This document shows, in pieces, positions 1 to 6,983 of a DNA stretch of 6,983 bases. The stretch's first letter is position 1. The number at the start of each line of letters is the position of its first letter. A program made the translations under genes and the position numbers. The DNA comes from Candidatus Mcinerneyibacteriota bacterium (GTDB taxonomy: Bacteria > AUK180 > JAQVHJ01), in contig DAOVMD010000158.1 of the NCBI GenBank assembly GCA_030630935.1, forward strand, positions 1-6,983, read 5' to 3'. The notes under the pieces were generated by a model. The model ran no database searches. It saw only the letters and a list, made by a program, of their open reading frames with translations, and was not told where the DNA came from.

Positions 1-5
1 ATAGA

Positions 6-121
6 TTGTCAAGCAATTTCTTAATAATGATGTTACAATATGAAAATGTTAACATTTCTATTTAGTAATTAATGTTAACATTTTCATATTGTAACATCAA
101 AACAAAATATTTCCTTGACAA
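6..121. repeat. Concentric inverted repeat with perfect 29-bp arms
   Basis: The inner arms 28-56 and 71-99 are exact reverse complements over 29 bp and enclose a 14-nt loop. A second pair, TTGTCAAG (6-13) and CTTGACAA (114-121), is exact over 8 bp and shares the same axis at 63.5. The 14 bp between inner and outer arms pair only partly. Each inner arm also contains the small palindrome ATGTTAACAT (46-55 and 72-81), so the element shows dyad symmetry at two scales. The stem is AT-rich and has no following T-run, so it is not a textbook rho-independent terminator. It could be an operator region, a cruciform or hairpin in a leader, or a small mobile palindrome. What is seen is the symmetry; the role is unknown. 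Confidence 0.9.
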
Positions 122-789: not shown

Positions 790-1701
790 TTACTTAATAA
801 ATTGTCTCCAAAGTTCAATATTTTCAGGTATTAAAAATATCCACCTGTTCTTACCTGGTCGTTGAATCTTAATATACTTATCTTTATATAATGAGACTTC
901 GAACTCCGGAGAATTCAGGGAAACCTGATACTTTAACCTGCGAAAAGTATATATCCTAATCTCCTGGGAAGTTAAGATAACATAACCCACCCAATTTTTA
1001 ATTTTACCCCGCTGCCTGAAAGAGATCTGCATCGGTCCTTCAATAACCGGAATAATCCCAAGAGACACAATATCTGGAGGTGGCTTACATGAATAATTAA
1101 ATAGAATCAGAACCACAATCATAATTAAGTTAAATGGAACAAACATCAATATCATAAAAAATCTATCAGGCTGCATAAATGAATTAGGAACCTGGGCATC
1201 AATTTTATCAAGCTCCGTAGGATCAAATACATCCGCACCATTATATTTCAGTGACTTTAGAATAGAGATATAGTTCTCAATTGTCTGACGTGATGTTGAG
1301 TTTGAGTATTGTCGGATATAAATTTTATCAATCACCTCACCATCTTGAAGAATCTTAAAATATCCATATATCAAAATTCTTTTACCCTGACGCTGAAGAA
1401 ATATCTCCATTTCACCAAGCTTAGATTCCGGGTGAAAGTTATACTCGGAATAAGACTTTATCCCTTCATAAGTCTTTTGATCTGTATCCATGGTAATTTT
1501 GAACTCGTGCATTTTATATTTCCAAATAATAATATCATTTTCATTGGAAGCAGGAGGTTTTGGCATGCTCATCTCAAAATTACCATAGGTAAACTTACTA
1601 AAGTCCTTTGGATTAAATTGATGTGTAATAAAATAATAAACCGTGCCCATCATGAGATTCATCACTATTATCATAATTATTAAAAGAGATTTTCCTTTCA
1701 T
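790..1701 (-). CDS. Two-helix membrane protein with possible C-terminal PH-like domain
   Basis: I do not recognise this 303-aa protein as a named family. A short basic N-terminus leads into a hydrophobic helix at about residues 5-25. A polar region of about 155 residues follows (26-180), then a second strong hydrophobic helix at about 181-202. A 100-residue basic C-terminal region (203-303) ends the protein. By the positive-inside rule the middle region would be extracytoplasmic and the C-terminus cytoplasmic. The tail alternates beta-strand-like segments (GYVILTSQEIRIYTF, YIKIQ, RWIFLIP) and ends in a helix (ENIELWRQFI), a pattern resembling bacterial PH-like domains; this is inference. It is the last gene of the operon, starting 2 nt after the stop of the 618-aa sulfatase-like gene. 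Its nearest purine-rich site, GGGG, is 11 nt from the ATG, so translational coupling is likely. It looks somewhat richer in G and C than its neighbours. It may anchor or serve the enzymes upstream. Confidence 0.75.
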   Translation of the reverse strand: MKGKSLLIIMIIVMNLMMGTVYYFITHQFNPKDFSKFTYGNFEMSMPKPPASNENDIIIWKYKMHEFKITMDTDQKTYEGIKSYSEYNFHPESKLGEMEIFLQRQGKRILIYGYFKILQDGEVIDKIYIRQYSNSTSRQTIENYISILKSLKYNGADVFDPTELDKIDAQVPNSFMQPDRFFMILMFVPFNLIMIVVLILFNYSCKPPPDIVSLGIIPVIEGPMQISFRQRGKIKNWVGYVILTSQEIRIYTFRRLKYQVSLNSPEFEVSLYKDKYIKIQRPGKNRWIFLIPENIELWRQFIK

Positions 1702-1703
1702 TT

Positions 1704-3560
1704 TTATATATACCCCAATCCTTTTAATGTGTTTTTTAGATCATCACTCAATGATTGATCTTCAGGGAGATATGATTCATCATCCTTCGTAATATAGGTA
1801 CTTAGTCTTATTTTTATCTCCTTCAATAATTCCAGTTTTTGAGATTCATTATAGATATTCTTTAGTTCCTGTGGATCTTTTTTCAGATTATACAACTCCC
1901 AGCTTTTTAATTTTGGGAAATATATTAATTTATAACCTTTATAAATCAATCCAAATTTCGGGAACCAACCCTCCCCTTTAATATAATAATGATGAGTTGC
2001 TAAAAATAGGTCGCGGTCAGATACAGCTTTTAAGATTGAAAGACCGTCAGATTTCTGATTCGTCTTTAATCCGGACAACTCCAGTAAAGATGGAAAGATA
2101 TCAAGAGTTGAATAGAATTCTCTCTCAGGTAAATCTTTAATGTCACCATTTATAATTAACAGGGGAACTCTTGATAATGCTTCATAAAAGCTATAACCGT
2201 GAGCTAAATTTGAATGTTCCATGAACTCCTCACCATGATCTGATAATACCAGGATAATTGTATTATCAAAAACTTTCTCTTTCTTTAAAAAATCAATCAG
2301 CTTTCTCATACTATTATCAAAATACATAACCTGTGCATCATACATTTTCTTTATTTCTTCAAGGACATCGTGGTTGAGATTTTCATTATTACCTTGTTCA
2401 TTAACATCATGAATAATATTTTGAACTATCTCCGGGGATAGGTTTTTCTGTTTTACCTTCAGTTTCTTTAAATAGCGAGCAGGAGCAATATATGGGGTAT
2501 GAGTATCCATACAATGAATATAGGAGAAAAAATTATAATGCTTGAAATATGTAATCCAGTCCTTTATAAAGGGTAAATAATTATCCAGACTAACAAGAGG
2601 AAGTTCCATAAAAAAATCGAACCCTCTATCAAATTGATATTTTCTTTTAATCAATGGATTCGAAGAGAAACAAGAAGTTATATATCCATTTTCTTGAAAT
2701 ATCTCTCCAATCATTTTAACTTTTGGATTCAGTTCATGTTTATCAAACCTGTATATTCCATGTTTAAACGGATAGACTCCGGTTAGAATTGACGGCACTG
2801 ATGGCCAAGTCCAGGGAGCAACTGAATACGATGGAGTTAAATTCTTAATTTCACTCCTCATAGAATTCAGGAATGGTGTGAGTTCCGTAAATACTTTATC
2901 ATATCGAAGTGCATCAGAAAGTACAATTATAATGTTTTTATTTTTTTTATTTATATTCCTGGGACGGTGTATTTGCTTAATAAACTTCAATCGGGTTATA
3001 CCAAATTGAACTGCTTCTTTACATGAGGTATCTTTACTTGAAAAAACAATTTTAATGTTTAATTTTTGATTCAGAAACTTTTTCAACCGCAGAGAATTAT
3101 GCTGCCATGATAATTCGATAAGGTTATCTTTGTATTTATTCTTTCTGAAATAATCCCGAGGATGAATAACCTTTGTTTTGATCTCTTTCTCATTAATTAG
3201 CATTGTAATTTGAAATTTCCTCTTTAAATGATGATTTGGGATTTCGAGAAATCCAAAGTAAAAACTCAAAGAGACTATATCAGAAGGGAAATTAAAATTT
3301 ATTTCAATCGACTTGTTTAATCCAGTTGAATATACCTCATCAAAACCGAAATTGAAAACTTTCTCAAGTGATTTATTTTTAAATCCTGTAATTTCAACCC
3401 CATTAATATTGTCGATGGAATAATATCTATTAATCAAATCCAATTTCTTCTCAAACTTTTGAAATAGTTGAGACCTGTTCCGAAACCACTTATTTCCCTT
3501 TATAAATTTCTTCAGAAATATTAACTTTAATTTAATTTGATTCTTAAAAAATAAATCCAT
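1704..3560 (-). CDS. Sulfatase-like alkaline phosphatase superfamily enzyme with Thr nucleophile (copy B)
   Basis: The product is 618 aa. Residues 1-50 are basic and amphipathic with no clear signal peptide. Residues 55-195 form a strand-rich accessory domain like the beta-sandwich seen upstream of some sulfatase domains. The catalytic domain starts at IIIVLSDALRYD, with metal-ligand candidate D216. The nucleophile loop is APWTWPSVPSILTG, which places Thr251 where sulfatases have the formylglycine Cys/Ser and lacks the x-P-x-Arg signature. IHCMDTHTPY (348-357) matches the mid-domain His block. SDHGEEFMEH (D441, H442) and LAHG (H454) supply the remaining metal ligands. The end carries the sulfatase C-terminal block WELYNLKKDP (554-563) and finishes LKGLGYI. 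It most likely hydrolyses or transfers a sulfo- or phospho-ester group. The substrate is unknown, and without a signal peptide it may act in the cytoplasm. It follows copy A after 12 nt with a good ribosome site and is followed by the membrane protein after 2 nt. Confidence 0.85.
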   Translation of the reverse strand: MDLFFKNQIKLKLIFLKKFIKGNKWFRNRSQLFQKFEKKLDLINRYYSIDNINGVEITGFKNKSLEKVFNFGFDEVYSTGLNKSIEINFNFPSDIVSLSFYFGFLEIPNHHLKRKFQITMLINEKEIKTKVIHPRDYFRKNKYKDNLIELSWQHNSLRLKKFLNQKLNIKIVFSSKDTSCKEAVQFGITRLKFIKQIHRPRNINKKNKNIIIVLSDALRYDKVFTELTPFLNSMRSEIKNLTPSYSVAPWTWPSVPSILTGVYPFKHGIYRFDKHELNPKVKMIGEIFQENGYITSCFSSNPLIKRKYQFDRGFDFFMELPLVSLDNYLPFIKDWITYFKHYNFFSYIHCMDTHTPYIAPARYLKKLKVKQKNLSPEIVQNIIHDVNEQGNNENLNHDVLEEIKKMYDAQVMYFDNSMRKLIDFLKKEKVFDNTIILVLSDHGEEFMEHSNLAHGYSFYEALSRVPLLIINGDIKDLPEREFYSTLDIFPSLLELSGLKTNQKSDGLSILKAVSDRDLFLATHHYYIKGEGWFPKFGLIYKGYKLIYFPKLKSWELYNLKKDPQELKNIYNESQKLELLKEIKIRLSTYITKDDESYLPEDQSLSDDLKNTLKGLGYI

Positions 3561-4560
3561 ATTAATCCCTTATTAAATATACCCCATTCCACGCAGAGTA
3601 TCTTCCAGTTTTTTATCGATTTGTTCAGTTTGCTTTTCTGAAGGAATATCAGATTTCTTTAAATATCCCGCAAATATTGCTTTTACCTTTTTAAATATTT
3701 CTGTATCTTTAACCTCTTCATAAATATTTTTTTTTTCATTGGGATCCTTTTCTAAATTATAGAACTCCCACTCATTAAGAATGGGAAAGTAAATAATTTT
3801 ATAGTCATTAAAAATTAACCCGAACTTTGGATTCCGCCCCCTATTTTTTACAAAACAATTATACGAAGAAATAAATAATTCAAAATCTGAGGTCTTTTTA
3901 TTTAAAGAAGTCCCGTCAAAATTTTCATCTGAATAAAAACCTTCATAATCCAAAAGGGTTGGTAATATATCCATTAGCGAATATTTCATATCCTTCTGAA
4001 TATCCTTAATATCTTTACCTATCACAATTAAAGGAACTTTTAATAATGTATTATAAATATTTTGGTCATGAGTTAAACCACCATGTTCGAGAAACTCTTC
4101 ACCATGATCAGAAAAGATAATTAAGACAGTATCTTCATAAAGATTTTTTACTTTTAACATTTTTACTAATCTCTTCAAATTATTATCAAAATGTAATACC
4201 TCCGCGTTGTACTGCTTCACGATTTTCTCAAGATACTTTTTCTCAATTAATGACGGGTTATTATTATGATTTACATCTTTAGTAAATTGATGGTATTTTT
4301 CGAGTGAATATCGTATCATACTTGCTTTGGCTTTTAATTTGAACTTAAATGGAGCATCATAAGGTTCATGCGTCTCCATTGTATGAATGAACATTAAAAA
4401 GTGATTCTCTTTATATAGTTTTAACCATTTTTTTAGGTAGGGTAAAAAGAAATCAAGAGATAAATAATTACCCGGGTGATAAAAATGATCAAAACCCCGA
4501 TCAAATCCAAATCTTTCAGTAATTAGCGGATTAGATGTAAAACCTATAGTTAAATACCCA
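3250..4560 (-). repeat. Downstream copy of the duplicated A-B module (aligned part)
   Basis: This segment covers the 3' two thirds of copy A, the 12-nt junction and the 5' end of copy B. It aligns with 5673-6983 at a constant offset of 2423 bp: stops 3573/5996, starts 3560/5983 and internal Met codons 4394/6817 all differ by exactly 2423. No net indel is seen across about 1.3 kb. Confidence 0.85.
3566..3571 (-). promoter_or_regulatory. Ribosome binding site of copy B
   Basis: On the minus strand AAGGGA sits 5 nt before the ATG at 3560, in the 12-nt gap just after the TAA stop of copy A (3573-3575). The spacing supports this start. The same arrangement recurs at copy B' (AAGGAA, 5989-5994, 5-nt spacer, same 12-nt gap), which shows that the junction was duplicated as a unit. 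Confidence 0.75.
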
Positions 4561-5489
4561 TTCTCCTGAAAATACTCAGGCAGGGTTTTTACTTTAGAAG
4601 ATATTTTATTCTTATCAAACTTATAGACCTGATGTTTCATAGGGAGCATACCGGTTAAGATTGACGCAGTTGAAGGCCATGTCCAGGAAGCTACAGAATA
4701 AGTCGGGTCAAGCATTATGCAGTCATCCGAAATTGAATTCAAGTACGGAGTTAGTTCAGTAAAAACCTTATCATATCTAAGCGCATCACATAAAACAAGT
4801 ATATAATTTTTACGCTTACCTTCATTCTTTATCCTATTAACTTTAATTTTATTTATTAAATTTATATTTGTCCAGCCAATGGTTACATTCTTATTCTGAA
4901 GGTCTTCATCTGAAGTAATCCGTAACTTTAAATTTATTTTCTTAGCCTTAATATCTCTAAGGGAGACTTTTACTTTTCGCCAACGGAATGAATGAATTTT
5001 CTCTTGTTTTCGCTCCATGAAAAACTCGTCCCGGGAAGGATGACAATTTATTGAAGATACTATTTTATCATTGATATAAATTTCCAATTTAAATATTTTA
5101 CTCATAACTTCTAAAGGAATCCTTATGAAACCATATTGGAATTCTAAATACTCACTATTCTCACACTTCTCGAAAACTACATTAAGATATGTATCATACC
5201 TCGATATGAAAATATCTTCTTTCCCGAATTTGTAGATTTTACAAACTTGTTTTTTTTGATAACCCGAAAAATCGACACCCTCCGTTTCCTGTAAATAAAT
5301 TTTACGAGTTATTGTATTCAATTGGTCTTTATTAAATTTAATTGAATTCAAATGATACATACGATTAATAAACTTTATTATTAATGACCTTCTTTTCAAA
5401 CGTAACAAATTTCTTTTAAAGAAAAAGTCATAGAATTTCCTCAATAATAATTTTATATCAAAAATGTTTTTTTTCTTCTCGTTTGACAT
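3573..5489 (-). CDS. Sulfatase-like alkaline phosphatase superfamily enzyme with Thr nucleophile (copy A)
   Basis: The product is 638 aa. A lysine/arginine-rich N-terminus (1-45) without a clear signal peptide precedes a strand-rich accessory domain (about 70-215) ending in IGWTNINL, reminiscent of the sandwich domain before some sulfatase cores. The catalytic core starts at YILVLCDALRYD (D235). The nucleophile loop is ASWTWPSTASILTG, with Thr270 at the Cys/Ser position and Thr274 where formylglycine sulfatases keep Arg, so activation by formylglycine-generating enzyme is not expected. FIHTMETHEPYDAP (367-380), SDHGEEFLEHG (D461, H462) and LTHD (H474) follow, then WEFYNLEKDP (574-583) and the ending LRGMGYI. 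It is a distant paralogue of copy B and a close one of A'. Its ATG overlaps the stop of B' as TAATG, so translation is probably coupled; the nearest GGG is 9 nt upstream. Its reaction is inferred as ester hydrolysis or group transfer, substrate unknown. Confidence 0.85.
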   Translation of the reverse strand: MSNEKKKNIFDIKLLLRKFYDFFFKRNLLRLKRRSLIIKFINRMYHLNSIKFNKDQLNTITRKIYLQETEGVDFSGYQKKQVCKIYKFGKEDIFISRYDTYLNVVFEKCENSEYLEFQYGFIRIPLEVMSKIFKLEIYINDKIVSSINCHPSRDEFFMERKQEKIHSFRWRKVKVSLRDIKAKKINLKLRITSDEDLQNKNVTIGWTNINLINKIKVNRIKNEGKRKNYILVLCDALRYDKVFTELTPYLNSISDDCIMLDPTYSVASWTWPSTASILTGMLPMKHQVYKFDKNKISSKVKTLPEYFQENGYLTIGFTSNPLITERFGFDRGFDHFYHPGNYLSLDFFLPYLKKWLKLYKENHFLMFIHTMETHEPYDAPFKFKLKAKASMIRYSLEKYHQFTKDVNHNNNPSLIEKKYLEKIVKQYNAEVLHFDNNLKRLVKMLKVKNLYEDTVLIIFSDHGEEFLEHGGLTHDQNIYNTLLKVPLIVIGKDIKDIQKDMKYSLMDILPTLLDYEGFYSDENFDGTSLNKKTSDFELFISSYNCFVKNRGRNPKFGLIFNDYKIIYFPILNEWEFYNLEKDPNEKKNIYEEVKDTEIFKKVKAIFAGYLKKSDIPSEKQTEQIDKKLEDTLRGMGYI

Positions 5490-5983
5490 TATAAATAACC
5501 CAAGCCCTTAAGTTGTTTTAAAACCTTCTCATCTTCTTCACTACCAGATTTACCATTTAATGCGATTTCTTCCTCTGGGTCTAAATTACTTTTCTCAAGC
5601 TTATTATTATTTAAAAATTCATCAGAAAATATTTCCATTGGAACTACCCCATCCATATACTCCGGAATCGTTAAACCAAAATAAATATTTAAACCGATTA
5701 TATCAAATTGATATTTAATGTTTATTTCAATCGGTTTGTTTAATCCAGTTGAATAAAATTCATCAAAACCGAAATGAAATACCTTCTCAAGTGATTTATT
5801 TTTAAATCCTGTAATTTCAACCCAATTAATATTGTCGATGGAATAATATCTATTTATCAAATTTATTTTCTTCTCAAACTTTTGAAATAGTTGAGACCTA
5901 TTCCGAAACCATTTATTTCCATTTATAAATTTCTTCAGAAATATTAATTTTAATTTAATTTTATCCTTTAAAAACATATTCAT
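5489..5983 (-). CDS. Chimeric sulfatase-like protein lacking the catalytic core (copy B')
   Basis: The product is 164 aa. Residues 1 to about 103 match the N-terminus of copy B without gaps and include the nearly invariant stretch from KLKLIFLKKFI through WFRNRSQLFQKFEKK and FKNKSLEKVF. After IYFG the sequence switches to TIPEYMDGVVPMEIFSDEF and an acidic segment ending VLKQLKGLGYL. From family knowledge this resembles the C-terminal end of type I phosphodiesterase-like members of the alkaline phosphatase superfamily (typically PEDMDG followed by a Glu-rich stretch and LGY[IL]). The nucleophile and all metal-ligand motifs, about 500 residues, are absent. The frame is intact across the join, the ribosome site AAGGAA has ideal spacing, and the stop overlaps the start of copy A as TAATG. 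It is either a decaying deletion remnant that stays open by chance or selection for coupling, or a small protein using the N-terminal region alone. Enzymatic activity is not expected. Confidence 0.75.
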   Translation of the reverse strand: MNMFLKDKIKLKLIFLKKFINGNKWFRNRSQLFQKFEKKINLINRYYSIDNINWVEITGFKNKSLEKVFHFGFDEFYSTGLNKPIEINIKYQFDIIGLNIYFGLTIPEYMDGVVPMEIFSDEFLNNNKLEKSNLDPEEEIALNGKSGSEEDEKVLKQLKGLGYL

Positions 5984-5995: not shown

Positions 5996-6983
5996 TTAAA
6001 TATACCCCATTCCACGCAGGATATCTTCCAGTTCTTGGTCGATTTGTTCTGTTTGTTTATCTGAAGGAATATCCGCTTTCTCTAAATACCCGTCAAATAT
6101 TGCTTTTACTTTTTTAAATGTTTCTGTATCATTAACTTCTTCATAAATATTATTTTTTTCATCGGGATCCTTTTCTAAATTATAGAACTCCCACTCATTA
6201 AGAATGGGAAAGTAAATAATTTTATAGTTATTAAAAATTAACCCGAACTTTGGATTCCTGCCTTTATTTTTTACAAAACAATTATACGAAGAAATAAATA
6301 ATTCAAAGTCAGTGGTTTTTTTATTTATAGAAGTCCCGTCAAAATTTTCATCTGAATTAAAGCCTTCATAATCCAAAAGGGTTGGTAATATGTCCATTAG
6401 CGAATATTTTTTATCCTTCTGAAGATACTTAATATCTTTACCTATCATAATTAAAGGAACTTTTAATAATGTATTATAAATATTTTGGGCATGAGTTAAA
6501 CAACCATGTTCGAGAAACTCTTCCCCATGATCAGCAAAAATAATTATGACGGTATCCTCATAAAGATTTTTTGCCTTTAATATTTTTATTAATTTCTTCA
6601 AATTATTATCAAAATGTAATACCTCTGCGTTGTACAGTTTCACCATTTTCTCAAGATACTTTTTCTCAATTAATGACGGGTCATTATTCTGATTTACCCC
6701 CCTATCAAGTTTAAGGAATTTTTCAGCTGAATATCGTATCTTGCCTGCTTTTGCTTTTAATTTGAACCTGAATGGAGCATCATAAGGTCCATGCGTCTCC
6801 ATTGTATGAATGAACATTAAAAAGTGATTCTCTTTATATAACTTTAACCACTTTTTTAGATATGGTAAAAAGAAATCAAGAGATAAATAATTACCCGGAT
6901 GATAAAAATAATCGAAACCCCGTTCAAATCCAAATCTTTCAGTAATTAGCGGATTAGTAGAACACCCAACTGTAAAATATCCA
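5996..6983 (-). CDS. Sulfatase-like enzyme, 5' end beyond the window (copy A', partial)
   Basis: This is the C-terminal 329 codons of a close paralogue of copy A. The reading frame stays open to the right edge. Upstream of the internal Met at 6817 it continues with NPLITERFGFERGFDYF and PYLKKWLKLYKENHFL, matching copy A residue for residue, so 6817 is not the start and the real start lies outside the window. By hand count about 44 of the 273 residues after that Met differ from copy A (roughly 84% identity) with no gaps. Visible catalytic landmarks are FIHTMETHGPYDAP, ADHGEEFLEHG and LTHA, so the DH and His ligands are kept. The nucleophile loop is not in view. It ends LRGMGYI. It is the first gene visible in the operon and is followed after 12 nt by B'. 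The function is the same as for copy A by inference. Confidence 0.85.
   Translation of the reverse strand, partial: GYFTVGCSTNPLITERFGFERGFDYFYHPGNYLSLDFFLPYLKKWLKLYKENHFLMFIHTMETHGPYDAPFRFKLKAKAGKIRYSAEKFLKLDRGVNQNNDPSLIEKKYLEKMVKLYNAEVLHFDNNLKKLIKILKAKNLYEDTVIIIFADHGEEFLEHGCLTHAQNIYNTLLKVPLIMIGKDIKYLQKDKKYSLMDILPTLLDYEGFNSDENFDGTSINKKTTDFELFISSYNCFVKNKGRNPKFGLIFNNYKIIYFPILNEWEFYNLEKDPDEKNNIYEEVNDTETFKKVKAIFDGYLEKADIPSDKQTEQIDQELEDILRGMGYI

Follow-up and report, generated by a model that had tools for sequence, protein, structure and literature searches.

Fusions of neighbouring genes arising from short-junction tandem duplication have been described in S. aureus, where nusG'-'sigH and rplK'-'sigH were formed in this way and the nusG'-'sigH repeat spans 1,210 bp, its seam showing 8 bp of identity (PMC3486894). 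The locus reported here resembles them in its tandem repeat and in that the front of a downstream gene is fused in-frame to the tail of an upstream gene; in S. aureus intact copies of both lie outside (PMC3486894), and here an intact B lies downstream and C would lie upstream. The S. aureus fusion was a fresh, reversible laboratory event that gave an active sigma factor (PMC3486894), whereas here the units have diverged by 10–13% and the fusion is without any catalytic domain. The mechanism is already known in bacteria and knowledge of it is unchanged by this case, which adds a new example, in an uncultured bacterium. It would clearly illustrate, in nature, how the seam of a duplication can give an in-frame gene within an operon. 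The seam ORF has apparently remained open during the 10–13% divergence of the copies, which suggests that translational coupling to the next gene can preserve seam genes.

Layout of the operon and make-up of the chimeric ORF

The window (the whole analysed stretch of 6,983 nucleotides) is contig C438 of a draft MAG of 471 contigs. The genes on its minus strand follow in the order A' (cut by the contig end), a 164-aa ORF, A, B and a 303-aa membrane protein, and the features are as follows.

5996..6983 (-): gene A', first copy, with its 5' part beyond the contig end; 90% nucleotide identity to A
5489..5983 (-): chimeric ORF B'::C', 164 aa, with an AAGGA ribosome site upstream and a TAATG overlap with A
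5675..5983 (-): B-derived part of the chimera, codons 1–103; 87% nucleotide identity to B, no gaps
5489..5679 (-): C-derived tail of the chimera (last ~61 codons of C), including LKGLGYL and the TAATG overlap with A; matches contig C162
3573..5489 (-): gene A, full copy, 638 aa, PF00884 sulfatase-like
1704..3560 (-): gene B, full copy, 618 aa, PF00884 sulfatase-like; paralogous source of the chimera front
790..1701 (-): 303-aa membrane protein, last gene of the operon
3257..5679 (-): second 2,423-bp unit (C' tail – A – B front)

The first unit ends at the junction and would start beyond the right end of the window, on C162. The 164-aa ORF is a genuine chimera of the B front and the C tail; the alignments to B and C agree with the original prediction of an in-frame join between the front of B and the tail of another phosphodiesterase-like gene. 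Codons 1–103 aligned with B without gaps at 87.1% nucleotide and 79.6% amino acid identity, and the chimera front and B form a 300-nt direct repeat with a spacing of exactly 2,423 bp. The switch point with the lowest mismatch was found to lie anywhere within window 5675–5679, close to the predicted position of about 5672, and the TTGG common to B and C at this place gives only a few bases of parental identity. From codon 104 onwards, nothing in A, A' or B matched the chimera except the common C-terminal LKGLGYL. Thus, the tail had rightly been called absent from A, A' and B in its IPEYMDGVV part, but not in LKGLGYL, which is a motif common to A, B and AlkP-superfamily proteins at large; the donor-specific signature of the tail is IPEYMDGVV.MEIFSDEFLNNNKLEKS. 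The reading frame, the ribosome site (AAGGA) and the TAATG coupling to A, all expected to be kept, were found in place. The loss of the catalytic domain was also borne out, as the 164-aa ORF gave no Pfam or NCBIfam domain match and is therefore without the catalytic domain and metal site of PF00884 or PF01663.

Both A and B matched PF00884 (E 1e-33 to 4e-34) and carry the metal-site sequence SDHGEE, so that they have the domain and the metal site of the sulfatase-like AlkP superfamily whereas the chimera has neither. Of the type I phosphodiesterase C (PF01663), the chimera keeps no more than the final ~61 codons, which lie outside the catalytic domain that was matched. Formylglycine sulfatases carry C/S-x-P-x-R. 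The nucleophile region of A and B reads WTWPSxxSxLTG, without this motif, and from these residues A and B are probably not formylglycine sulfatases but Thr-nucleophile phospho-transferases or hydrolases. Among the fetched loci (L028–L106), which had been chosen for AlkP-type genes, 72 of the 73 ORFs of at least 200 aa ending in L..LGY contained DHG. Terminal L..LGY marks AlkP-superfamily ORFs broadly, and a literature search on C-terminal LGY as a named motif or tag returned nothing relevant.

Donor genes and origin of the seam

The gene C in the same genome was located on contig C162 (L009), directly after mltG (YceG). It matched the chimera tail with 87% identity over 97 nt (E 3.4e-27), and with 90% amino acid identity over 30 codons. 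This C matched PF01663 (E 1.7e-36, against E 6e-40 for the C of a relative), in keeping with the predicted nature of the tail as the end of a type I phosphodiesterase. C adjoins mltG on C162 and stops at the contig edge, running off 97 bp into the stretch common with the chimera tail; its place before the first unit is taken from the order in the relative. The adjacency of C162 and C438 is likewise suggested by synteny with one relative, the contigs not being physically joined. If they do adjoin, 1,022 bp are missing between the end of C162 and the window, which makes a coherent gap, and a piece of ~1,022 bp may have been lost in binning because it is so short. A search of the genome gave no further orthologue of A, B or C. 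C-like genes (AlkP-superfamily, PF01663-type) were seen on eight more contigs (C423, C176, C216, C66, C318, C209, C278 and C78), that on C176 sitting among glycosyltransferases; this genome has a sizeable AlkP-superfamily expansion.

A relative of the same family (contig JAQVHJ010000101.1, isolate STE_202) carries a single-copy mltG-C-A-B-membrane protein locus, the membrane protein of 353 aa ending the operon in the same place as the 303-aa protein of the window. The identity between the two genomes was 64% for C and 41–42% for A and B. In the relative, C ends with QLKGLGYI and TAATG and overlaps A by one base in this TAATG, as the chimera overlaps A in the window. Thus, the coupling of the chimera to A is that of C, carried along with the C tail. 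When A and B were used for scanning, the locus of this relative (L027) was the sole close match; the other 79 loci kept showed 21–31% identity, mostly over the AlkP domain. The scan of genome contigs with the chimera as query found no relative, and no homologous 164-aa protein was seen in relatives. Neither A/B nor C was found in five genomes of the same class, so that there is no second relative with which to date the event.

These findings fit an origin in one tandem duplication. From an ancestral order mltG-C-A-B-membrane protein, a 2,423-bp segment would have been tandemly duplicated, taking in the final ~61 codons of C at one end and reaching codon ~103 of B at the other, through recombination between a few bases (TTGG) that happened to be identical. 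The outcome would be C-A'-(B'::C')-A-B: C would remain intact upstream and B downstream, and the chimera would mark the seam, where the first codons of B run in-frame into the C tail. Because the relative has a single C-A-B, and one duplication with its ends inside C and B suffices for both the gene order and the chimera, the deletion in the original prediction (an A'-B'-C-A-B order in which B' was fused to C) is not needed; its other part, that C lay upstream of A in a C-A-B order, agrees with the relative. An A-B-C-A-B order with full-length B and C, for which the prediction would have related genomes searched, was not seen: the only relative with the locus has a single C-A-B. In addition, A' and A are in the same register (6890–6983 matches 4467–4560) with a constant period of 2,423 bp, the intact downstream donor B follows the second unit (618 aa, 1704–3560), and the nucleotide identity is alike in the three repeated pieces (90% for A'/A, 87% for B'/B and 86% for tail/C). 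Taken together, we consider it likely that the chimera is the gene formed at the join of a short-junction tandem duplication, and a single step appears to account for it instead of two. The genome could hold more than two units. A counterpoint to one shared age is that the tail and C differ at 9 of 14 synonymous sites, as against 22% for A'/A; the high tail dS may be noise on 14 sites, or the A copies may have been homogenised, and it is not what one shared age predicts.

The alternative in two steps, a full C-A-B tandem duplication followed by long divergence with six working genes and a recent deletion fusing B' to C', would make the chimera a recent leftover with no function under selection. 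The identical final order does result if C-A'-B'-C'-A-B later underwent a deletion, and this history accounts for the purifying signature without selection on the chimera. The two-step history calls, however, for two rearrangements instead of one, and no full-length B' or C' was found in the genome searches. Differences moreover cluster towards the seam: about 16 of 70 nt differ in the ~25 codons leading up to it, compared with about 11% further in front, a pattern weakly in favour of a long-standing seam. We therefore regard the two-step history as unlikely.

A wrong joining of B and C pieces during assembly was also considered, the genome being a draft MAG of 471 contigs whose contig ends fall in the repeat. 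On either side of the seam the sequence diverges by ~13% from its parent elsewhere in this genome and hence is not copied parental sequence, and nowhere else in the genome matches across the seam. The word shared at the seam is of 4 bases, whereas apparent assembly overlaps are of ~55, and the join is in frame with its coupling conserved. An artefact is thus highly improbable, and misassembly was rejected on the ~13% divergence from the parents, the 4-base seam word and the in-frame join. The end of contig C78 (L143) overlaps window 1–56 by 56 nt. An overlap of this size points to assembly words of ~55, and the contig next to the window on its left side is probably C78.

Age, selection and possible role of the chimera

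The divergence between A' and A gave dS 0.26 and dN/dS 0.27, and that between the B' front and B gave dS 0.36 and a pairwise dN/dS of 0.28. Comparison of the tail with C over 27 codons showed changes at 9 of 14 synonymous sites and at 1 of 67 nonsynonymous sites. With the A'/A divergence as the clock of a neutral simulation, an ORF of this kind was expected to acquire about 3–4 stops, and the probability of no stop was 0.02–0.06; when frameshifts were included, the probability of an intact ORF was about 0.002 or less, depending on the assumed indel rate. Amino acid changes were fewer than under neutrality with P 0.003 at t=0.13 per lineage and 0.1 at t=0.10. Both results rest on the assumption that fusion and duplication are of the same age and that gene conversion played no part. 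On that assumption, neutral drift of the chimera is hard to square with its intact ORF and a dN/dS of about 0.28, and a fresh remnant is disfavoured; if the fusion arose later by deletion, the selection tests say nothing.

The model of B had a mean pLDDT of 76, and its residues 42–198 resemble a beta-sandwich that precedes the AlkP domain. The seam cuts this sandwich in mid-strand (strand 95–106 in the B model), so that the chimera is predicted to hold only part of the N-terminal beta-sandwich of B and no catalytic site. The chimera itself was modelled from a shallow seven-sequence alignment with a mean pLDDT of 37.5 and no confident fold. Neither predicted structure speaks for a stable domain in the chimera. 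The absence of an AlkP domain, the cut sandwich and the pLDDT of 37.5 favour an effect in cis. Translation of the chimera would start at the ribosome site of B and stop at the TAATG inherited from C, and ribosomes would thereby reach the second copy of A at its start, just as they would pass from C to A in the relative. The only visible ribosome-site-like sequence of A is AAGGG, inside the LKGLGYL codons. A translational relay to A, in cis, is the likeliest role that the sequence suggests, although we put it forward tentatively. Such a relay would hold the frame, while the amino acids need not be held.

A selected small protein acting in trans, for example as a partner or decoy of B through its N-terminal helix and C-terminal LKGLGYL, would account for the dN/dS of 0.28 in the front, the single nonsynonymous change in 27 tail codons and the keeping of both parent-protein ends. 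The cut in mid-strand of the beta-sandwich and the low mean pLDDT (37.5, from a shallow alignment) speak against it, as does the lack of a homologous 164-aa protein in relatives, and the constraint may instead stem from coupling or from a recent fusion; such a protein appears doubtful. The fuller proposal, that the seam gene was born in one step and has been kept by selection ever since the duplication as a new, non-enzymatic 164-aa protein regulating or localising the paralogous phosphohydrolases, is held to be improbable.

Dispersed repeat at the left end of the window

Two copies of GTTACAATATGAAAATGTTAACAT were seen at window 32–55 (+) and 72–95 (-), facing each other as an inverted repeat. 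When up to 3 mismatches are allowed, this sequence occurs 19 times in the genome, 11 of these being exact matches, against 0 for a control. It is part of a dispersed repeat of ~125 bp, which starts near the left end of the window and is often found at contig ends. The ~125-bp repeat may be MITE-like or regulatory. About 20 bp outside GTTACAATATGAAAATGTTAACAT lies TTGTCAAG, the reverse of which, CTTGACAA, is -35-like.
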